A DNA stretch of 25,540 nucleotides from Bacteroidales bacterium UBA4345 (GTDB taxonomy: Bacteria; Bacteroidota; Bacteroidia; Bacteroidales; Paludibacteraceae), in NCBI GenBank assembly GCA_002396385.1, contig DGTD01000073.1, forward strand, positions 4,220 through 29,759. Reading direction: 5' to 3'. The notes below the pieces were generated by a model. It was not told where the DNA came from. It did not search any database and was given only the letters and a program-made list of their open reading frames with translations. A program made the position numbers and the translations under genes. Below are positions 3,328 through 11,825 of the stretch, in pieces. Within the stretch, counting starts at the first letter, position 1, and every line of letters starts with the position of its first letter.

Positions 3328-3798
3328 TTATTTCAAAGAGAAAGCAAAAGGTAGGATGGAACCAACGCCATGAATACGAAAAGAGCCACAGGCCCCATAA
3401 AGAATAATCTTCAGTGGCAGTCCGGCCCTCGCCTCCGTTTCGGCCATCACCTGCGCACAGCTGCCACAGGGCGTGATAGGTTCAGGCAGGAAATGTCCGT
3501 CGGTAAAGGCGGCAATAGCGATGGCAACCACTTTCTGCTCGGGATAATTGGCCCCAGCGGCAAAGAGGGCGGTACGCTCGGCACAGAGTCCGCTAGGGTA
3601 AGCGCCATTTTCCTGATTGGCACCCCTGACCACTACCCCATTGTCGAGCAAAACGGCAGCCCCCACAGAAAAGTGCGAATAGGGGGAATAAGAACCCTTG
3701 ACAGCCTCTTTGGCAGCGTCGACTAACATACGCTCTTCCGCAGAAAAATCGGCCTCGTCGAGCACCTCGTATTTGATAGTTTTTACAAGTTGTCTCAT
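3328..3798 (-). CDS. cdd: Cytidine deaminase
   Basis: The enzyme hydrolytically deaminates cytidine or deoxycytidine to the uridine form in pyrimidine salvage. The 156-residue length fits the homotetrameric type. The zinc-site motifs are complete: CAE at residues 72-74 (C72 ligand, E74 proton shuttle) and PCGSC at 110-114 (C111 and C114 ligands). Substrate-binding FSVGAA (43-48) and GANQEN (59-64) are also present. The usual PCGxCRQ has Ala in place of Arg (PCGSCAQ), which is a common variant. A good -7 element lies upstream, so it is probably monocistronic or transcribed towards lptB, 66 bases downstream. It marks the last normal-composition gene before the AT-rich block. Confidence 0.96.
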   Translation of the reverse strand: MRQLVKTIKYEVLDEADFSAEERMLVDAAKEAVKGSYSPYSHFSVGAAVLLDNGVVVRGANQENGAYPSGLCAERTALFAAGANYPEQKVVAIAIAAFTDGHFLPEPITPCGSCAQVMAETEARAGLPLKIILYGACGSFRIHGVGSILPFAFSLK

Positions 3799-3814
3799 AA
3801 AAAAAGATTTTATG

Positions 3815-3822
3815 CAAAGATA
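3815..3822 (-). promoter_or_regulatory. Putative -7 promoter element for cdd
   Basis: The minus-strand sequence TATCTTTG matches TAnnTTTG and ends 17 bases before the cdd ATG. A TTG lies about 23 bases further upstream, a loose -33 candidate. Confidence 0.5.
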
Positions 3823-3965
3823 AGTACAAGTTGGCAGAGTTCTATCAAGGACCCAGTCTTATATCTGATTTGATTTTTGGACCAATATTTCAAAACCGAA
3901 TTTATTAACATTGAGAAAAGAGTCCAAACCAGAGAAATCAGTTCATTCGAATGGACGATAGTCTG

Positions 3966-5606
3966 TTACTCGCGGTAGTAGGTGTAGGTCATAATCGTAA
4001 CATATGTCGGATTTTTTTTCAAAATAGTCTTCTCTGCAGTACTTATAGTGATGCTTGCTTTCTCAGAGATTACGCATTCGACTACATTCCCCACTTTATC
4101 GTATTTAACGCACTCATAACCACCATCTTTTTTTACAGTTTTCACTTCTACCAAATGATTATCTGCATCATAGAGGTTGGTCGTTTGTCTCACTATTTTA
4201 TCACCATTCCTATGAGTTTCCGACATAAGGTTGTTATGGTCATCATACTGATAATCTATTCTAGTCTCATATTCGTAATTGTCAGTATTATAGTTTCCTT
4301 TGTCATGTACGATAGAGAGCAGCAAACCTCCGTCATTGTAGGTGTAGCGTGAGCAATTCGTCTCCTCGGAATTATGATAAAAACATTTGGTAAGAGTCTT
4401 GCCGTTCTTGTCAAAGGTCGTGACAGAAATTATCGTATCAATGTTGAGTTTACCTTTTAGCGAGTCATCTTCCCTGCCCTCATTTCGTGTTATAATCAGC
4501 TTATTGTCAACCTTTTTCTCCTCATAAAAGGATATATATACAAGAGTATCGTTCCTATATTCTTTTCTGTTAAAATCGTCACCGTTCTTACAATGGGTAT
4601 AAGTGCCGTTATCATTAAAATACGTGGATAAGCATTCTATCTCTTTGTTCTTTTCATCGTATTTATACTTGCATTCAATTTTAGGACAACAAGAATAACG
4701 TCTGAAATAGGTACGATTTCCATTTTTATCATAGCGTTCGATGTTATCTAACTCTCCGTTTACAAATTTCTGCACTGTTTTATCCCCTTCTTTTCCGTAT
4801 TCGTATTTTATTAAGAACCGTTGAGGTATTTTATTTTCCCCTGCATATAAGCATTCATTAGTGCCTTGATGTGTTAATATATTGCCCTTTGAATCGTAAG
4901 TGTAAGTTTTTTTTCCGCAATTGGTTGAATCAGACAACAGCCTTCCTTTCGAATCATACCAATGATAGGAAGTAAGTTTTCCATCCTTATATTCCTCCGT
5001 CAAATTTCCCCGCTTGTCGTACACTTTGTTTATGCGTGATATAACATTGTAGTATCTATCCACCGAAATGATGTCCATTTCTTTTCCCCTTTTATCGTAA
5101 AAGACATATTCGTATTTCGCTATCTTTTTTGAATTTACAGATTCATAGGTAATTGTGCAATACAGTTTTCCTTTTGAATCGAATAAACGTGTAGCATTGG
5201 GAAGACGTTCTTCACGTAATATGCCCTTGTCTGAATAGATTCTATGACTATTGCGTATAGGGAATGGGCCACGACTTTCAACCACTTCATACTTTCCATT
5301 GATGAATTCACGCCTCACGTATGCGGAAGAACCCGTTCTTCGATTCTCATAATCAAATAACACACAATTGTGTTTTTGATCGAAAAAATTGAATATGACT
5401 GACGTAGTATCAGTCTTCTCGTTGCCGAGAGAGTCCAAGTATTTGCAAGTTTTTACTTTGTAGGCTGTTCTGACATTTCCTTTATAGTGGTATTCTTGAG
5501 AGTATCCATCACCTAACATACAAGACTCGCAGGCAATTGTGGGAATCATGCCACAAAAGATAAATAAAAAGGTTAATAAAAGGTTTTTCATGAAAAACTT
5601 AGTCAT
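3966..5606 (-). CDS. Secreted YD/RHS-like repeat protein
   Basis: This is a 546-residue exported protein. An N-terminal signal sequence is built around LLLTFLFIFCG (residues 9-19). TIAC at residues 23-26 could be a weak lipobox, so it may be a lipoprotein; otherwise cleavage is nearby. A second ATG at 5591 (MKNLLL) gives a more conventional signal peptide. The rest is about a dozen imperfect YD-type units, for example FYDKRGKE, VYDKRGNL, WYDSKGRL, TYDSKGNI, RYDKNGNR, TFDKNGKT and LYDADNHL. Such Tyr-Asp/Gly-Asn repeats form beta-rich wraps in RHS/YD proteins. No C-terminal toxin domain, RHS core signature or transmembrane anchor is seen, and the protein ends soon after the last repeats. Function is unknown. 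It is AT-rich and probably acquired. Confidence 0.8.
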   Translation of the reverse strand: MTKFFMKNLLLTFLFIFCGMIPTIACESCMLGDGYSQEYHYKGNVRTAYKVKTCKYLDSLGNEKTDTTSVIFNFFDQKHNCVLFDYENRRTGSSAYVRREFINGKYEVVESRGPFPIRNSHRIYSDKGILREERLPNATRLFDSKGKLYCTITYESVNSKKIAKYEYVFYDKRGKEMDIISVDRYYNVISRINKVYDKRGNLTEEYKDGKLTSYHWYDSKGRLLSDSTNCGKKTYTYDSKGNILTHQGTNECLYAGENKIPQRFLIKYEYGKEGDKTVQKFVNGELDNIERYDKNGNRTYFRRYSCCPKIECKYKYDEKNKEIECLSTYFNDNGTYTHCKNGDDFNRKEYRNDTLVYISFYEEKKVDNKLIITRNEGREDDSLKGKLNIDTIISVTTFDKNGKTLTKCFYHNSEETNCSRYTYNDGGLLLSIVHDKGNYNTDNYEYETRIDYQYDDHNNLMSETHRNGDKIVRQTTNLYDADNHLVEVKTVKKDGGYECVKYDKVGNVVECVISEKASITISTAEKTILKKNPTYVTIMTYTYYRE

Positions 5607-5610
5607 TGGA

Positions 5611-5656
5611 GACCTCTATTAATTCATTTTTCCGAGTCGTTTAGGTTGTAGAGGTC
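5611..5656. repeat. Inverted repeat upstream of the YD-repeat gene
   Basis: Perfect 8-bp arms GACCTCTA (5611-5618) and TAGAGGTC (5649-5656) are separated by 30 bases, immediately upstream of the 5606 start codon. This could be an operator or mRNA leader structure. No TAnnTTTG element was found nearby. Confidence 0.35.
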
Positions 5657-5765
5657 ACATATTAACAGCCTATTCAACTTTTATTTTGTAAAAATGAAAA
5701 AAACGGAGCATGCCCACCCACTCTACTGTTTTCGGATAGCCAGAGCAGAACCTGGTTTAGACTAG

Positions 5766-8216
5766 TCACTTCCGACTCTTTATAGAGAACCATTCATAAG
5801 TCTTTAACCAACCTTTTTCGCGTGATACTTCGTAAGCTCTTCTACATCCTTTCAAAAATTCGGTCTTTGTCTTATACTTCAATGCCTCTTCACGGCAGGT
5901 TTCTTCATTCCAATAATTGAATTTTGGTTTTTCCGAAAACCATTCGTAGCTATCAAGCCAACCATTTCTTCGAGCAACATTATAAGCACTAACACAGCCT
6001 TGTTGAAAATTCTTTCGTGATGAGTATTTCTTTGCCTCCTCACGACAAGTTACTTCGTTCCATTTTTTATTCCACTTCTCAGGAGTATGTAACCAATGGT
6101 AACTTTCAAGCCATCCATTTTTCCGGGCTACTTCATAAGCTCCACCACTGCCATTTGAGAATGCCACACGAGATTTATATTTTAGAGCTTCCTCTCTGCA
6201 GGTTTGCTCGTTCCAATAGCCTTTAGGTACAGAGGTTCTTTCAAGCCAATCATAACTATCTAACCATCCGTTTTCTTTTGCTAGTACATACGCACGTGCT
6301 GCTGCATTTCGAAATTCTTGTAATGTATTGTATTTTAGTGCTTCTTCTCGACATGTTTCTTGGTTCCAGTAATTTCGTTTCTTTTGTTTTTCAAGCCAAT
6401 CATAGGTCTTTAACCAACCTTTTATATAGGCCACCTTGTAAGCTCCTTTACTCCCTTTTGAAAAGTCCTTTAATGTTTTGTATTTCATAGCCTCCTCACG
6501 ACAGGATTCCTCATTCCATTTGCCTTTCTTAACCTCAAGCCAATTGTAATTCTCAAGCCAACCATTACGCCAAGCTATAGTATATGCACTACTGCATTGT
6601 TTACGAAATTCAGAAAGTGACTTATACTTAAGAGCCTCTTCTCTACAGGTATTACGATCCCAGTAGCCATTAGGTTTTGAGTATTTTTCAAACCAATCAT
6701 AGCTATCTAACCAACCATGTTGATTAGCAACTTCATAAGCCCCAGAACTTTCCCTACAAAATTCTGTTCTCGAATTATATTTCTTTGCCTCTTCTCTACA
6801 AGTTTCTTCATTCCATTTTTTATTGTAATTTTCAGGTCTTTGAAACCAGTCATAACTTTCTAACCAACCTTTTTCCCAAGCCAATGCATATGCTCTTGAT
6901 GCTCCATCATGGAATTCTACTTTAGACTTATATTTCATGGCTTCTTCTCTACAGGTTTGTTCGTTCCAATAACCTTTGGGTTTTATAACTTCAACTAACC
7001 AGTCGTAATCATCCAACCATCCATTCTTACGAGCAACAATGTAAGCTTGTTCACTCCCCTTAATGAAATCCCCTTTAGTAGTGTATTTCTTTGCTTCACG
7101 CATACACGATGACTTATTCCACTTGCCAGAGCCAAGTCCTCCTATCGAACCTGCCTTCGCTTTATTTATAACGTTCCATCCATCTTGCTTGAATTTTTCA
7201 ACATACTCTCCTTCTTTCTTTGCGGCTTGTTGTGGAGTAAGATGGTTTTCAAGAATTTCCATTGGCGGTATGTCTATACGGTTATCATAAGCGAAGTTAA
7301 ATACAGTACAACCTTGTTTATGATGCCCCCAATCTCTTTGCTTGGGATCTATAGTAATACCAACATATACACTGTTTAGGTCATTCCATTTATATACGTA
7401 AAGGTTGAACCACCGGCCAGTCTCTGTAAACATCTTTTGGTTTACCATCCAATAGTAATCTTCTAGCCAACCATTATCTTTGGCTACGTTATAGGCGCTT
7501 GGACTTCCTTTAGAAAATCGACTTCTTAAGTTATATTTTTTTGCTTCTTCAAGACAAGTTTGCTCGTTCCAATAGCCACTAGGTTTTCTTAATTCTTCAA
7601 ACCAGTCGTAGTCGTCCAACCAACCATTTTGTCGTGATACTACATATGCACTGCCTGCATATTTTTGAAATCCACTTCTTGTACTATATTTTAAAGCTTC
7701 TTCACGACAAGTTTCTTTTGTCCAATATCCATTTGGTTTATGTAGTTCTTCAAACCAGTCGTAGTCGTCCAACCAACCATTGATTCGGGCGACATTGTAT
7801 GCGGCGCTTCCACTGTTGCCGAATTCGCTTTTTGACTTGTATTTCATTGCTTCCTCGCGACAAGTTTCTTTTGTCCATTTTTTGTTATGAACAACAGGTC
7901 TTACAAACCAATCGTAATCTTTAATCCATCCATTTCTTTGTGCAATAGCATACGCACTACCATTCCCTCTTTGAAAAGCAGTCTTAGAAGTGTATTTCTT
8001 TGCTTCGTCTCTACAAGTTTGTTCGTTCCAATAACCAAATGGTTTTGTATGTGTTTCAAACCAATCATAACTATTTATCCACCCATTTTTCAATGCTAGC
8101 CAATAGGCATGATAACAATTGTTTTTAAAATCACCTCTAGTGTTATATTTCTTTGCCTCCTCACGACAGGTATTCTCATTCCAGTAGCCTTTAGGCTTTT
8201 GTTGTCTATTTCCCAT
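5766..8216 (-). CDS. GIY-YIG nuclease embedded in a 14-copy ~51-residue repeat array
   Basis: This 816-residue, probably cytoplasmic protein has no signal peptide. A ten-residue leader is followed by five repeats (residues 11-267), a GIY-YIG nuclease domain (268-364) and nine more repeats (365-816), ending only a few residues after the last unit. Repeats are 48-53 residues. W2, C7, Y14, F20, A27-Y28, G35-W36 and W42 are near-invariant; the consensus opens WNEQTCREEA and closes NGWLDSYDWF. The nuclease core looks intact: LYVYKW (GIY-like, Y273/Y275), VYVG (283-286), R294, H298/H299, E335 in KKEGEYVEKF and GWNVINKAKAG. GIY-YIG enzymes cut DNA with one metal ion. I recall similar short repeats after the nuclease in phage and homing-type proteins, usually in small numbers. 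By inference the repeats bind nucleic acid. Biological role is unknown. Confidence 0.85.
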   Translation of the reverse strand: MGNRQQKPKGYWNENTCREEAKKYNTRGDFKNNCYHAYWLALKNGWINSYDWFETHTKPFGYWNEQTCRDEAKKYTSKTAFQRGNGSAYAIAQRNGWIKDYDWFVRPVVHNKKWTKETCREEAMKYKSKSEFGNSGSAAYNVARINGWLDDYDWFEELHKPNGYWTKETCREEALKYSTRSGFQKYAGSAYVVSRQNGWLDDYDWFEELRKPSGYWNEQTCLEEAKKYNLRSRFSKGSPSAYNVAKDNGWLEDYYWMVNQKMFTETGRWFNLYVYKWNDLNSVYVGITIDPKQRDWGHHKQGCTVFNFAYDNRIDIPPMEILENHLTPQQAAKKEGEYVEKFKQDGWNVINKAKAGSIGGLGSGKWNKSSCMREAKKYTTKGDFIKGSEQAYIVARKNGWLDDYDWLVEVIKPKGYWNEQTCREEAMKYKSKVEFHDGASRAYALAWEKGWLESYDWFQRPENYNKKWNEETCREEAKKYNSRTEFCRESSGAYEVANQHGWLDSYDWFEKYSKPNGYWDRNTCREEALKYKSLSEFRKQCSSAYTIAWRNGWLENYNWLEVKKGKWNEESCREEAMKYKTLKDFSKGSKGAYKVAYIKGWLKTYDWLEKQKKRNYWNQETCREEALKYNTLQEFRNAAARAYVLAKENGWLDSYDWLERTSVPKGYWNEQTCREEALKYKSRVAFSNGSGGAYEVARKNGWLESYHWLHTPEKWNKKWNEVTCREEAKKYSSRKNFQQGCVSAYNVARRNGWLDSYEWFSEKPKFNYWNEETCREEALKYKTKTEFLKGCRRAYEVSREKGWLKTYEWFSIKSRK
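5769..7124 (-). repeat. C-terminal repeat array, nine units (R6-R14)
   Basis: Nine tandem units of 48-51 residues (144-153 bp) encode residues 365-816. Unit starts are residues 365, 416, 467, 518, 566, 616, 667, 718 and 768. Every unit has W2 and C7. Linkers after the W42 position alternate between forms ending in KPKG/KPNG and NYNK/KWNK. Codons for conserved residues differ between units, so the array is old rather than a recent DNA-level amplification. Confidence 0.9.
7125..7415 (-). other. GIY-YIG nuclease domain segment
   Basis: Residues 268-364 of the 816-residue protein carry the family motifs in order: a GIY-like Y-V-Y, YVG, Arg at 294 with adjacent His-His, a Glu at 335 in the E-x-x-Y-V context and G-x-N near the end. 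The SIGGLGSG tail joins directly to the first downstream repeat. No key catalytic position appears lost. Confidence 0.8.
7416..8186 (-). repeat. N-terminal repeat array, five units (R1-R5)
   Basis: Five tandem units of 51, 51, 51, 51 and 53 residues start at residues 11, 62, 113, 164 and 215. They share the scaffold of the C-terminal array. R3 and R4 are the most alike (both WTKETCREEA and NGWLDDYDWFEEL), consistent with one relatively recent duplication. Confidence 0.9.
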
Positions 8217-8239
8217 TGCAACAATTATTTCACTTTGTA

Positions 8240-8303
8240 AACAGTATTAGAGATTATAATAGTTCACAGCTGTTTGTACTATACTAACAATACTGTTATA
8301 GTA
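8240..8303. repeat. Nested inverted repeats upstream of the GIY-YIG repeat gene
   Basis: Two inverted repeats overlap in this leader. AACAGTATT (8240-8248) pairs with AATACTGTT (8289-8297), and TACTATA (8277-8283) pairs with TATAGTA (8297-8303). They lie 24-87 bases upstream of the start codon at 8216. They may be operator-like or fold as alternative leader hairpins. No clear TAnnTTTG promoter element was found here. Confidence 0.3.
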
Positions 8304-8330
8304 TGGGGAGTCTTCAAGTTCCTCATAACG

Positions 8331-8483
8331 TTACAAAATATTTATTATATCAATTCTTTTTCCAGTAAAAATTGAATTTATCTTATTTACCGAAACAACG
8401 TCCTCCACTGCCAATGCAAGAAATTGTTTAGCCCTCGAACATGCAACTTTTGACAATAAAAGTTCTACATACGTTTTCCTATT
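8331..8483 (-). pseudogene. Possible decayed C-terminal fragment of a UvrD-type helicase
   Basis: In the 353-bp gap 8217-8569, the minus strand has a 50-codon stop-to-stop frame with no ATG. It reads as convincing protein: TYVELLLSKVACSRAKQFLA followed by LAVEDVVSVNKINSIFTGKR and a short tail. VACSRAKxxL resembles motif VI of superfamily I (UvrD/Rep-like) helicases, which lies near their C-termini. There is no room for the remaining helicase because a TAA lies directly upstream in frame and the next gene ends at 8570. I infer a truncated remnant. The match rests on one short motif, so chance coding cannot be excluded. Confidence 0.35.
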
Positions 8484-8518
8484 TTATAGTTCATATTTTT
8501 CTTATATAGTTAAATCAA

Positions 8519-8546
8519 GAAACGGATGCCAAGTGACATCCGTTTC
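8519..8546 (-). terminator. Terminator hairpin after the secreted 168-residue protein gene
   Basis: A perfect 10-bp stem GAAACGGATG/CATCCGTTTC (8519-8528 with 8537-8546) has an 8-base loop. Read on the minus strand it is followed by TTGATTTAAC, a weak T-rich tract. It lies 24 bases past the stop at 8570. Confidence 0.6.
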
Positions 8547-8569
8547 ATATTATTGATTTATTGAATATT

Positions 8570-9076
8570 TCAGTATGTAAAAAGTTCACATATAATAGAA
8601 GAATCAGGATATTGTCCAGCATTTCCATTTGATTGGCTTACGACCAAAACACAACATGCTCCTTTCTTTGCAGCTTCTTTTTGAGCTTTCATAAGAGCTT
8701 TCTTCATAAAGTGACCTTCAGAATTATGCATTGACCATGCTCCATTTGAATGCTTCTCTATTCTTCCCATTGACTTCATTCCCATTACTTCATTTTTGTC
8801 ATATGCAACTCTGACTTTCTCCCAATCATTCCCATTATTGATAATGATTTTGTCTGTTATATATTGTTTTCTACCACTTGCAAATGTTATTTCAGAAACA
8901 CCTATACTTCCATAAGTATTTACAGTTTCCTCACCTTGATAAATAAATTTAATGAATTGATCTGTCACTTCAGTAACTTTTCCATCAGCTACAGATCCAT
9001 TATGGAATGTTACTTTGTCTTGTGCTGAACACACCATACTAATGGATGTCAGTAAAATTAGAAAATAATTTCTCAT
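8570..9076 (-). CDS. Secreted hypothetical protein (168 residues)
   Basis: I do not recognise a named family. The N-terminus is a clear signal peptide (MRNYFLILLTSISMVCSA, probable cleavage before QD), so the product is periplasmic or surface-exposed. Residues 22-80 (VTFHNGSVADGKVTEVTD, SIGVSEITFASGRKQYITD) look like a small beta-rich domain. The type is common in Bacteroidota secreted proteins that begin 'xxxNGSxxxGxVxEV'. A C-terminal part has FMKKALMKAQKEAAKKGACCVL (helix followed by a hydrophobic strand), a pattern also seen in small envelope-stress lipoproteins. A TATATTTG promoter element lies upstream and a hairpin terminator downstream, so it is probably a single-gene transcript. Confidence 0.75.
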   Translation of the reverse strand: MRNYFLILLTSISMVCSAQDKVTFHNGSVADGKVTEVTDQFIKFIYQGEETVNTYGSIGVSEITFASGRKQYITDKIIINNGNDWEKVRVAYDKNEVMGMKSMGRIEKHSNGAWSMHNSEGHFMKKALMKAQKEAAKKGACCVLVVSQSNGNAGQYPDSSIICELFTY

Positions 9077-9086
9077 AATACTTTTT

Positions 9087-9124
9087 TAGTTTTACATTAG
9101 TTTTACATAATACCTACAAATATA
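9087..9124 (-). promoter_or_regulatory. Promoter element and duplicated leader for the secreted 168-residue protein
   Basis: The minus-strand TATATTTG (9117-9124) matches TAnnTTTG and lies 40 bases upstream of the ATG at 9076. Between it and the start codon an 11-bp sequence, TAGTTTTACAT on the plus strand, occurs twice in tandem (9087-9097 and 9098-9108). Confidence 0.5.
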
Positions 9125-9136
9125 CGAAGTAGTTCT

Positions 9137-9298
9137 TTAATCATAATCTGACATCCTGAGAAAAAAATCAATTCTAAGGGTTTCTACATTATTATAAAAC
9201 TCACATATATTGGTGCTTTTGATAAAAACATCAATGGATTTTGACAAAGAGTAAGTATTAAAAGTGACAGAGACTTCAGTTCTGTCGAATTTTATCAT
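9137..9298 (-). CDS. Small ORF whose start lies in direct repeat copy A
   Basis: A 53-codon ORF begins with ATG at 9298 (MIKFDRTEVSVTFNTYSL); a GTG at 9322 would add eight residues. Its first ~20 codons coincide with the direct repeat. In the second copy near 10.65 kb the same start (MIKFDRTEVSVGFNP) runs into a stop after 15 codons. No known domain or membrane segment is seen. It may be a real small gene of which the other copy is a remnant, or a chance frame in a conserved non-coding repeat. Confidence 0.3.
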   Translation of the reverse strand: MIKFDRTEVSVTFNTYSLSKSIDVFIKSTNICEFYNNVETLRIDFFLRMSDYD

Positions 9299-9308
9299 AT
9301 TGCCAACA
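9232..9308. repeat. Direct repeat copy A, downstream of fic
   Basis: About 77 bp. Bases 9266-9308 (43 nt, GACAGAGACTTCAGTTCTGT onwards) are identical to 10629-10671, and the preceding 34 nt (CAATGGATT onwards) match 10596-10628 with several substitutions and one indel. The identical part contains the dyad ACAGA-N9-TCTGT. The two copies bracket the fic gene in the same orientation, 1363 bp apart. Confidence 0.9.
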
Positions 9309-9397
9309 AGAAACTCCAACACATATTAGCAACGAGACACCTGTTTTGGCAGCGGGGGGAACTTCACTATTTGTTAAAAAATCGGTTTTTATGATTG

Positions 9398-10450
9398 CTA
9401 AAGCAATTCCCAGTGGCCGCCTTTGTCGGGACCGACACGACGGATGAGGCCTTTTTGCTGCATCTTTTTCATGTTTCGCCAAATATTACTTCTGTCAATC
9501 CCAATTAAATCAGACATTTCTTGTGTCGTGATATTGGGATTTTGTTTTATTAGATTCAAAATTTTCTGTTGCGTTTTCTGTTGCGTTTTCTGTTGCGTTT
9601 TCTGTGAACTTTCTACAACATTTTTCTGGATAGTTTCTATTCTCCTATCACTAAATTCTTCTGTCGTCTTAAGGAATTTGTCTATATCACTACGCAGGTG
9701 TTCAATATGCAACTGCGTCATGCTATCAACAAAGATGCCAATATCTTCAGTATTTCTTGTATCAACAAGAGCCTGGATATAAGCTATCTTGTCTTCTTTG
9801 AGCACTCGCACTGGCAACAAGTCGTATTCCATTTGCAACAAGTTCATCAGCAAACGGCTGGTACGCCCATTGCCATCTGCCCACGGATGAATGGTCACCA
9901 GTTCGTAGTGAGCCCAAAAACTGAGGTGATAGATAGCACAGGGGTCTGTCTTGTCGACCGAAATGCGACGTTTGTTCAGTTCTTCACAAAAAGCGGCAAG
10001 ACGTGACGGCACTTTCTGGTACGACATATACGACGGTCCACCAAGTCCCGCACTTACATTCAGTTTGCGCAACTCACCTCGTGCAGCCGAAAAACTGCCA
10101 ATCATTGTGTTATATTCGCTACCGGTATGGCTCATTACTTTAGCAGCCAACGAGATAAGCCAATCTACAGTTATAGGCTCGTGTCGCTGAATCCATTTCA
10201 TTCCATATTCGTATGCGGCCTTAAGATCGAGGTTCATCATCTGCTCCTGTATCGTGCGTTTACTGCTGGTGATACCCTCGTCGAAGAGGAGTTGTGCCTC
10301 CACCTCTGTCACGGTGCTGCCTTCAATGGCTGTGGAATGGGCAATAATGGAGTAGATATAGAATTTTTGGAAGTCTATCTGTTCCAAAATGCCTAAATCC
10401 TTATATTGATTCAGCAATTTAATCAATGTATCTTTGTCTTGTTGCGTCAT
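9398..10450 (-). CDS. Class II Fic-domain protein (putative AMP-transferase) with C-terminal winged helix
   Basis: Fic enzymes transfer AMP or other phosphate-containing groups to target proteins. The start at 10450 is chosen because AAAAGGAGGA precedes it at good spacing. It gives 350 residues; an upstream TTG at 10549 would add 33. The catalytic loop HPWADGNGRTSR spans 188-199, and the flap region lies around 115-138. The N-terminal autoinhibitory motif S39-x3-E43-G44 (in HSTAIEGSTVT) places it in class II, regulated in cis by its own helix. Residues 297-350 form a winged-helix domain (NITTQEMSDLIGIDRSNIWR). Architecture resembles Shewanella SoFic. The linker is a QKTQ tandem repeat. No antitoxin gene is adjacent. 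Target unknown. Confidence 0.9.
   Translation of the reverse strand: MTQQDKDTLIKLLNQYKDLGILEQIDFQKFYIYSIIAHSTAIEGSTVTEVEAQLLFDEGITSSKRTIQEQMMNLDLKAAYEYGMKWIQRHEPITVDWLISLAAKVMSHTGSEYNTMIGSFSAARGELRKLNVSAGLGGPSYMSYQKVPSRLAAFCEELNKRRISVDKTDPCAIYHLSFWAHYELVTIHPWADGNGRTSRLLMNLLQMEYDLLPVRVLKEDKIAYIQALVDTRNTEDIGIFVDSMTQLHIEHLRSDIDKFLKTTEEFSDRRIETIQKNVVESSQKTQQKTQQKTQQKILNLIKQNPNITTQEMSDLIGIDRSNIWRNMKKMQQKGLIRRVGPDKGGHWELL
9562..9605 (-). repeat. 12-bp tandem repeat in the fic linker
   Basis: On the plus strand TTTTCTGTTGCG occurs three times in tandem (9562-9573, 9574-9585, 9586-9597), followed by a partial TTTTCTGT (9598-9605). The copies are identical at DNA level and encode QKTQ units joining the Fic domain to the winged helix, so copy-number change would alter linker length in steps of four residues without a frameshift. 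Confidence 0.9.
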
Positions 10451-10595
10451 CGTCCTTCCTCCTTTTAATATGCCGTAACCGATTCCACGGAACGCTTCTT
10501 CAAGCATCTTTTGTAATTCCTTTACAGGATTCTCCGTCCATTGGTGCAAGTCCGTAAAGGGAACTCACTAAATATTGATGTTTTGGAAATAGCAA

Positions 10596-10671
10596 CAATG
10601 GATTATAACAAAGTTAAGGATTAAAACCGACAGAGACTTCAGTTCTGTCGAATTTTATCATATTGCCAACA
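10596..10671. repeat. Direct repeat copy B, upstream of fic
   Basis: This is the second copy of the ~77-bp repeat, same orientation as 9232-9308, with 43 identical bases at 10629-10671. Here the dyad is one base pair longer (CGACAGA-N9-TCTGTCG). A minus-strand TAACTTTG at 10609-10616 fits the TAnnTTTG promoter consensus and could drive fic with a leader of about 150 bases. Confidence 0.9.
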
Positions 10672-10728
10672 TAACATGAAAAGAATTTGCAGGTCATGGT
10701 TTGAGAAGCTGTAACCAAACCACGCACA

Positions 10729-10770
10729 ACAAACAATCGTCAATATTTGAAATTTTTGACAATTGTTTGT
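10729..10770. repeat. Imperfect 15-bp inverted repeat in the fic/GH73 divergent region
   Basis: Left arm ACAAACAATCGTCAA (10729-10743) and right arm TTGACAATTGTTTGT (10756-10770) match at 14 of 15 positions around a 12-base AT-rich centre. There is no T-run after either arm, so it is not a typical terminator. It may be an operator or a remnant of a mobile element end. Confidence 0.6.
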
Positions 10771-10957
10771 CAAAGACAGGATTCAACATTCACAATTGCA
10801 CCTCTGCTTGAAGTGGCGTTTAACCCCTATTTTGAAGATCGGAATAAGGATACAAGACACCACCCTAAAACGAAAATATGTTGGCAAAGCTATAAACAAA
10901 AAACATAAATTTGTCCACAAACTTAACATAGAAAAGGGAATATCACACAAACTTTGT

Positions 10958-10965
10958 TAAATTTG
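10958..10965 (+). promoter_or_regulatory. Putative -7 element for the GH73 operon
   Basis: TAAATTTG matches TAnnTTTG and ends 23 bases before the ATG at 10989. No -33 TTTG is seen at the usual distance. The six genes to 17536 have no other obvious promoter. Confidence 0.5.
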
Positions 10966-10988
10966 CAAGATAGTAGGCAAATAGCAAC

Positions 10989-11825
10989 ATGAAAATAAAC
11001 AAACTGTTCATCACCTGCGTAGGCTTCTTTATGATAGCCCATACCGCATACAGCAAACAACTCCAAAGTTTTTTGGACTACATAGACAAATACAACAAGA
11101 TTGCCGTTGAGGAAATGAAAGATTACGGCATTCCTGCCAGCATTACCCTTGCACAGGGCCTGCTGGAAAGTGGTGCCGGCCTCAGCCAGCTCTCGAAGGA
11201 AAGCAACAACCACTTCGGCATCAAGTGCCACGACTGGAAGGGCGACCGCGTCTATTTCGACGATGACGAGAAAGGAGAATGCTTCAGAAAATATACCGAC
11301 CCGAAAGACTCGTATAAAGACCACTCAGAATTTTTGGCAAGCCGTCCGCGCTATGCCTCATTGTTCGAATTAAAAAGCACCGACTATAAAGGATGGGCTA
11401 AAGGACTGAAGCAATGCGGCTACGCCACCGACCCCAATTACGCGAACCGGCTTATCAGCCTTATCGAGGAATACGGACTGGACAAGTACGACAAAGACAT
11501 AAAGAAAAAGAAGGACAAAAAAGACTCCCCTTCAGAAGGGAATAAAGACAAGAACAACTCTTCCGACAAACAAGGCGACAACGCAAACGAGAAAAAGAAA
11601 GTTGAATACGTACTGAAGAGTTCTATGGGAACCGTTGACGCAAGCAACACCCATACCGCCTTCAAGAAGAACGGCAAACACGTTGTAATTGCACGGGCAA
11701 ACGACACTTACGAAGGTATAGCCAAAGAATTCGGGTTGAAGAACTGGGAAATCAGATGGTACAACAAAGTAAAAAAAGGTGAGACTCCGGCTGAAGGCAG
11801 TACTGTTATAATTAAGAAGTGGTAG
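10989..11825 (+). CDS. Secreted GH73 glucosaminidase with C-terminal LysM-like domain
   Basis: This 278-residue exported peptidoglycan hydrolase should cleave N-acetylglucosaminyl linkages in the wall. A signal peptide occupies residues 1-22 (FITCVGFFMIAHTAYS). The glucosaminidase (GH73/Flg_J type) domain covers about 25-165, with catalytic Glu60 in LAQGLLESGAG, the SNNHFGIKC motif and the C-terminal YATDPNYANRLISLIEEYGL block. A Lys/Asp/Ser-rich disordered linker (about 170-215) leads to a LysM-like module (about 232-278; HVVIARANDTYEGIAKEFGL) that would anchor the enzyme to peptidoglycan. It is first in a six-gene rightward operon, with a 31-base gap to the next gene. Confidence 0.92.
   Translation: MKINKLFITCVGFFMIAHTAYSKQLQSFLDYIDKYNKIAVEEMKDYGIPASITLAQGLLESGAGLSQLSKESNNHFGIKCHDWKGDRVYFDDDEKGECFRKYTDPKDSYKDHSEFLASRPRYASLFELKSTDYKGWAKGLKQCGYATDPNYANRLISLIEEYGLDKYDKDIKKKKDKKDSPSEGNKDKNNSSDKQGDNANEKKKVEYVLKSSMGTVDASNTHTAFKKNGKHVVIARANDTYEGIAKEFGLKNWEIRWYNKVKKGETPAEGSTVIIKKW

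Follow-up and report, generated by a model that had tools for sequence, protein, structure and literature searches.

A GIY-YIG nuclease within an array of fourteen predicted three-helix modules, a candidate array-guided endonuclease from Bacteroidales

What might a nuclease do when it lies in the middle of a long array of repeats? The question is raised by P0001, an 816-residue protein encoded on the minus strand (5766..8216) of a 25,540-nt stretch of DNA from Bacteroidales bacterium UBA4345 (DGTD01000073.1, positions 4,220 to 29,759), hereafter the window, in which its coordinates are counted. Re-reading of P0001 confirmed the layout proposed by a first-pass annotation: 14 units, five before and nine after a GIY-YIG core with all motif residues. 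P0001 belongs to a large, little-studied family common to phages and bacteria, and we give an even chance to its being an array-guided DNA endonuclease of homing-endonuclease descent, likely acting on incoming DNA. Our two stronger findings, both offered as hypotheses, are a pattern of conservation that is specific to the unit and, in chromosomal relatives, partner genes that are exchangeable.

On the minus strand, the upstream array (units 1-5, residues 12-258, with three helices per unit in the model) occupies 7443..8183, the nuclease domain (residues 268-355) 7152..7415, and the downstream array (units 6-14, residues 366-816) 5769..7121. P0001 has every GIY-YIG motif residue tested (Y...Y-x-G, R, H, E, N), namely Y273, Y284, G286, R294, H298, E335 and N351, which we matched one by one to what we take to be their I-TevI counterparts. 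The domain was assigned an I-TevI-like fold, that of GIY-YIG catalytic domains. Against Pfam PF01541 it scored 17.6 bits, with a curated cut-off of 22.6; the relatives P0081, P0089 and P0095 exceeded this cut-off, and P0002 and P0005 did not. Catalytic residues were kept in homologues, not generally lost: the core set Y, G, R, H, E, N was intact in 95 of 97 family sequences, the remaining two ending at a contig edge, and in 25 of 25 partner-linked sequences (a list with three duplicate pairs).

Whether the flanking units are compact helical modules, and whether they form a superhelix, were questions put by the first-pass annotation, and the two ideas fared differently in AlphaFold2 predictions, which used 50 sequences for the full-length protein and 118 alignment rows for a two-unit model. 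In the full-length model, with a mean predicted local distance difference test score (pLDDT) of 85, each unit has helices at unit positions ~3-10, 16-22 and 24-32 with a pLDDT near 90, and the two-unit model reproduces this module, so that the compact helical unit was borne out. A short turn parts predicted helices 2 and 3, in the order expected for a helix-turn-helix. Conversely, a rigid superhelix was rejected as unsupported, given the weak inter-unit linkers (pLDDT about 50-65) and predicted template modelling scores (pTM) of 0.29 for the full-length model and only 0.51 for the two-unit model. Because of the low linker pLDDT and the full-length pTM, 'beads on a string' suits the array better, and we predict that the unit is a compact three-helix module on flexible linkers.

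Each P0001 unit contains one invariant Cys. A DUF723/CapR zinc finger was ruled out as the identity of the unit by this single Cys and by a Pfam scan (E<=1) that returned zero DUF723, DUF4379 or CapR matches; the same scan found no NUMOD match after the nuclease. The only profile match at E<0.001, 7ue2 (RPB_PLP3_R6), presumably a designed helical repeat, was set aside as a compositional match. PF26058 is a precomputed Pfam label on P0001 and many relatives, so a newer Pfam release may already name the unit.

If the modules read nucleic acid, their variable residues should differ among the units of one protein and persist between orthologs. We compared, under a single-rate model, the per-position difference between units within one protein with that between orthologs, in a first set of 1274 units from 120 proteins (20 ortholog pairs, 77-89% identity) and a disjoint, held-out set of 107 proteins (19 pairs, 61-85% identity), pairs being mutually related. 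Positions 20, 24, 28 and 31 diverge between units of one protein (p 0.82-0.89) and little between orthologs. In the first set, positions 20, 28, 44, 24, 17 and 31 showed less ortholog change than the model predicts (z -6.3, -5.1, -5.1, -3.5, -2.3 and -2.2, respectively), whereas positions 40, 8, 4, 37 and 14 showed more. Position-wise residuals were concordant between the two sets (Spearman 0.88, 26 positions), and in the held-out set those at positions 16-32 lay below the remainder (p=0.0004), in an analysis of positions 1-39 with p>0.4 that were chosen after seeing a subtype difference at positions 40-43. Positions 20, 24 and 31 held in both sets. At 16 and 29 the effect was seen in the held-out set and, weakly, in the first; at 28 a strong effect in the first set became a weak one in the other; and 44 was not replicated in the held-out set. 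In the model, the conserved positions recur every 3-5 residues on two consecutive helices, a spacing that fits a single face. When eight such positions are read jointly, all 14 units of P0001 are distinct.

Such a helix 2/3 pattern would be expected if each unit recognised its own stretch of nucleic acid, and by itself is consistent with a TALE-like arrangement of one preference per module. A DNA ligand is suggested by the nuclease and by homing relatives. We infer, from sequence and models, DNA binding, one preference per module, cutting and a role for the window copy. The 14 helix-turn-helix-like modules would bind a long stretch of DNA through flexible linkers, the preference of each possibly being set by variable residues of helices 2 and 3 (foremost positions 20, 24 and 31, and also 16, 28 and 29); lying between modules 5 and 6, the GIY-YIG domain would cut within the bound DNA.

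How general is this architecture? With P0001 and a Shewanella relative, P0081, as queries, searches found at least 1454 and at least 2605 matches, respectively, from ~8000 scored candidates each; the top 120 of each search were listed, and since rank reflects similarity to a query that is itself two-sided, both lists favour two-sided proteins. Among the 227 sequences read, P0001 included, a nuclease was found in 223 and units on both sides in 218, so the two-sided array is common in the family. The best 120 from the P0001 search (again including P0001) had the nuclease in all 120 and two-sided units in 117, with 0 to 12 units ahead of the nuclease and 0 to 11 behind; the corresponding counts for the further 107 from the P0081 search were 103 and 101, the four sequences in which the nuclease was not found having 9-13 units. 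The remark, in the first-pass annotation, that similar proteins carry few units and only after the nuclease fits some phage members, namely both genes of Rhizobium phage L124 (0+3) and the viral loci L020 and L022 (0+4), but the two-sided form is not unusual.

Relatives occurred in 28 phage records, in 29 viral-contig loci (contigs up to 673 kb; the largest array noted is 6+3, in L002), in three plasmid records and in 45 loci of named genome records. The latter are mainly metagenome-assembled genomes of Bacteroidales, with single Selenomonas, Lachnospiraceae and Ruminococcus bins, and source-named matches of the P0081 search included Vibrio, Colwellia, Photobacterium, a woesearchaeote and a Rickettsiaceae bin. 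In a tree of the GIY domain, which rests on about 100 residues and serves as a guide only, the window gene falls together with P0020 and L072/L031 (support 1.0), surrounded by a mixture of viral and chromosomal branches, and partner-linked loci are scattered over several branches.

In some arrays a search for the nuclease came up empty, namely in L010, L017 and L097, and in L012, which has DUF723/DUF4379 zinc fingers in its stead. A superfamily 2 (SF2) helicase at L044 (295-2115; ResIII plus Helicase_C) bears four units of the P0001 type, so the module is not bound to GIY-YIG. These proteins would fit an array that is an RNA- or protein-binding scaffold, with a GIY-YIG domain acting on RNA or branched DNA, as would the fact that we found no solved nucleic-acid-binding relative for the unit. 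However, known GIY-YIG homing nucleases cut DNA, and array units stand together with DUF723/DUF4379-type fingers in the relatives P0079, L012 and L102, fingers of a treble-clef type that are taken as DNA-binding in excerpts of PMC10448857. We consider the scaffold explanation very improbable.

Under the preferred reading of a DNA endonuclease of homing descent, array-nuclease genes would move in phages as free-standing homing genes do. In the phi-Grn1/ValKK3/Va3 group of Vibrio phages, a single slot is used for the gene, with 2+3 units in phi-Grn1, 2+2 in VH7D, 1+2 in phi-ST2 and 3+2 in VH1_2019, and with tandem genes (3+3 and 2+3) in Va3 and R11Z. ValKK3 lacks the gene: its flanks match those of phi-Grn1 at 99.0% identity over 607 bp and at 94.6% over about 815 bp, and the slot holds about 105 bp of its own sequence. 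In phi-Grn1 the gene is bracketed by a direct repeat of about 40 bp that resembles a terminator. These phage relatives thus show presence and absence at a single site, as do free-standing homing endonucleases.

On chromosomes, the question becomes whether the array gene stands alone. After duplicate removal 54 distinct chromosomal array loci remained, of which 52 extend 300 nt or more past the array. Among these 52, 25 loci, including L044 and L097, where no nuclease was found, have a same-strand open reading frame (ORF) of at least 100 residues that starts no more than 30 nt from the array stop; in nine nuclease loci the partner ORF overlapped the array end by 4-11 nt, starts having been chosen mechanically. 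Pfam scans covered 20 partners, of which several share one partner group and two (L034, L111) begin over 30 nt past the array. Five reached the cut-off, with AbiH in L086, DUF2971 in L041, L043 and L049, and SIR2_2 in L083 (exactly at the cut-off); three remained below it (SIR2_2 in L077 and L082, DUF5677 in L053), and one had only weak, unrelated matches. PADLOC, run on ten partners, matched four, as ThsA (L083), PDC-S31 (L041), AbiH (L086) and CARF (L070; weak, E 5e-4), and gave no match for the other six. The L075 and L114 partners have the look of a restriction fold by eye only, and a search on them gave nothing relevant.

AbiH, SIR2_2 and DUF2971 jointly had 141 matches across 150 genomes of the family. 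Against that background, estimated from 2500 genes per genome in one taxonomic family and from matches at E<=0.001 with pieces included, five cut-off partners in 52 loci correspond to a Poisson tail of 2e-11, or of 0.003 if islands raise the background 50-fold.

Partners and arrays have been swapped, and several of the breakpoints fall on the array stop or close to it. From the array stop on, the L070 partner shares 84-87% identity with its counterparts in L110 and L112, and the arrays have no DNA match; L076 and L081 have in common only the last ~30 array bases plus the partner; and L082 and L083 share the SIR2-like gene (84%) plus short stretches at the array start. Loci L070, L071 and L086 have an upstream exonuclease gene in common and different partners, the L071 and L086 arrays being related and that of L070 different. 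In L073, L078 and L080, one slot holds three arrays with at most patchy similarity between flanks that are mostly 86-98% identical; this slot, in three genomes, adjoins a gene for a HAD-like hydrolase, as judged by eye. The exonuclease, of the RNase T type with an FtsK-gamma domain (named for L070, and by homology for L071 and L086), is encoded 19-76 nt upstream of the array (L070 6014-7921, L071 5867-7786 and L086 5663-7582), and may be a third component or mark an insertion hotspot.

The association with SIR2-like, AbiH and DUF2971 genes could instead reflect hitchhiking in defence islands, and not a functional pair. Accessory genes do cluster here, since neighbours of the relatives (122 scanned of 148 listed) include four Fic, three DUF1016/YhcG, three resolvase and two NERD genes, and a background raised 50-fold by islands leaves a Poisson tail of only 0.003. 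On the other hand, it accounts poorly for partner ORFs that overlap the array end, for similar partners behind dissimilar arrays (L070 with L110/L112, L076/L081, L082/L083) and for differing partners behind arrays with one common upstream gene (L070/L071/L086). We regard hitchhiking as somewhat unlikely. As part of the array-guided endonuclease reading, some copies in Bacteroidales chromosomes would have been recruited into exchangeable two-gene cassettes, some of them with effectors of the abortive-infection type.

Where does this leave the copy in the window? Its gene lies in an AT-rich accessory block (3799..10988), a description by the first-pass annotation that held, between a deaminase gene (3328-3798) and a glucosaminidase gene (10989-11825). 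Matches to these two genes adjoin in two sister genomes, with 106 nt between them in G003 and 176 nt in G005, where the glucosaminidase match lacks the first 19 residues; G001, with the flank genes on different contigs, and G004, with no deaminase match, were uninformative. In G002 the slot holds a different 11.8 kb block with the same Fic gene, ~90% identical over the Fic-glucosaminidase stretch, in which two adjacent proteins (L115 3164-6852) with PADLOC matches to Orf5, HEC-06 and SspE replace the nuclease module; we take their N-terminal part to be DUF262-like. Since the flanks adjoin in G003 and G005, the G002 block differs and defence-like genes occur there, we place the window gene in an exchangeable block at a hotspot. 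From this accessory hotspot, it would most likely target incoming DNA, either phage or another mobile element.

Three more genes of the block are also on the minus strand. A YD/RHS-repeat gene (3966..5606) is next downstream, 159 nt after the nuclease gene, and an upstream neighbour of 168 residues (8570..9076) has no family found; both products have an apparent signal peptide, by eye. Further upstream, 9398..10549 encodes a Fic/DOC protein that ends in a winged helix and that G002 has as well. The Fic gene lies between two direct copies of a repeat of about 110 bp (9198-9308 and 10562-10671; 86% identical, with a 57-bp core at 95%), with a further copy beside the G002 Fic gene (L115 1448-1556). 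At the end of the YD-repeat gene, 110 bp of the window (3926-4035) match L115 7087-7196 of G002 (86%) next to different cargo, a possible recombination boundary.

P0001 might, then, be merely a free-standing homing endonuclease, a selfish gene that is copied into empty alleles without host benefit and is transient in this block. Its many relatives in phage records and viral contigs, the empty ValKK3 site between near-identical flanks and the tandem copies in Va3 and R11Z would fit, as would its sporadic presence, in one of six genomes of the window genus and 16 of 358 of the family (its own included), and, beyond its immediate sisters, a GIY branch amid viral and chromosomal ones. However, the window gene is part of a multi-gene block and not alone within a conserved gene; what is absent from G003 and G005 is the entire 7.2 kb block, not this gene alone; and many chromosomal relatives have a same-strand gene closely behind. 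We hold a purely selfish element to be unlikely.

Several results weigh against an array-guided endonuclease acting on incoming DNA. Foldseek, VIA and profile searches of the unit against solved structures gave zero confident matches, DNA-binding folds such as Myb/homeodomain-like helix-turn-helix repeats included, which does not establish a new fold. Net charge of the P0001 units spans -3 to +6 and is not positive throughout, and no target site was identified. A pre-set raw contrast of positions 20, 24, 28 and 31 with positions 8, 14, 21, 37, 40 and 43 held in 18 of 20 pairs of the first set, which had suggested it, and failed in the held-out set (0.356 vs 0.300; 6 of 19 pairs). The failure is explained by positions 40 and 43, which do not vary in that subtype, and agreement between sets is confined to the residual analysis. 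P0001 matched zero PADLOC model families (E<=0.01), and 11 of the 20 scanned partners had no Pfam family. Finally, the defence, mobile-element or competition roles put forward in the first-pass annotation find partial support: a link to conflict biology was seen in relatives (AbiH, SIR2-like, DUF2971), but no effector partner overlaps the window gene, the YD-repeat protein being 159 nt away. A defence role for the window copy itself would be an inference.

If each module reads its own few bases, these natural arrays would form a modular DNA-recognition scaffold beside TALE and zinc fingers, with the nuclease built in, and the paralog/ortholog pattern points out the residues for a first mutation. 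If the chromosomal cassettes are defence modules, homing-type nucleases would have been joined to exchangeable abortive effectors. A bolder proposal, which we think distinctly unlikely, is a natural class of modular DNA-reading nucleases in which interchangeable arrays of ~51-residue trihelical modules are mixed and matched with toxic effectors (SIR2-like, AbiH, DUF2971 and others) against phages, recognition triggering either cutting or arrest.

How, finally, does P0001 compare with known systems? In open-licence PMC literature we found no description of a helical array on both sides of a nuclease, nor of such an array paired with abortive effectors; portions of PMC1564403, PMC10952713 and PMC13190303 show GIY-YIG nucleases in further mobile and defence contexts. 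The nearest parallel is offered by T5orf172 homing endonucleases of ICP1 and others, for which excerpts of PMC10448857 describe beads on a string made of repeated zinc fingers (CapR/DUF723/DUF4397), with the nuclease at one terminus and the DNA-binding part at the other, and with repeats that recombine with one another. As in those enzymes, the P0001 family combines a nuclease of the GIY-YIG superfamily with small repeated beads in variable number and is phage-borne; unlike in those enzymes, as the same excerpts present them, the P0001 nuclease lies inside the array (five units before, nine after) and not at a terminus, and its unit has no zinc-finger match. SNIPE, in the sections of PMC13190303 at hand, likewise uses a GIY-YIG nuclease, there against phage, and is membrane-anchored with a DUF4041 domain; P0001 has no DUF4041 match (E<=1). 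In Odn (RepA_N + T5orf172), according to parts of PMC8263062, a homing-type nuclease is steered by its N-terminal, DNA-binding part to the replication origin of a satellite, a rival element; P0001 would resemble it in kind, with an array in place of one replication-initiator domain.

The same sequence family is represented by PHROG 20046, of unknown function (E 1.9e-120; best stretch residues 211-504, covering unit 5, the nuclease and following units). The Vibrio phage relatives of P0001 that were read are shorter, with 1-3 units per side, whereas viral-contig loci reach 6+3. With I-TevI and the Seg and other free-standing GIY-YIG homing endonucleases, P0001 and its family share nuclease fold, catalytic residues and presence/absence in phage relatives; I-TevI binds DNA through a single C-terminal domain on a single linker, whereas P0001 has 14 near-equal modules on both sides. 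P0001 is a variant within the homing-type GIY-YIG nucleases, and not a separate kind.

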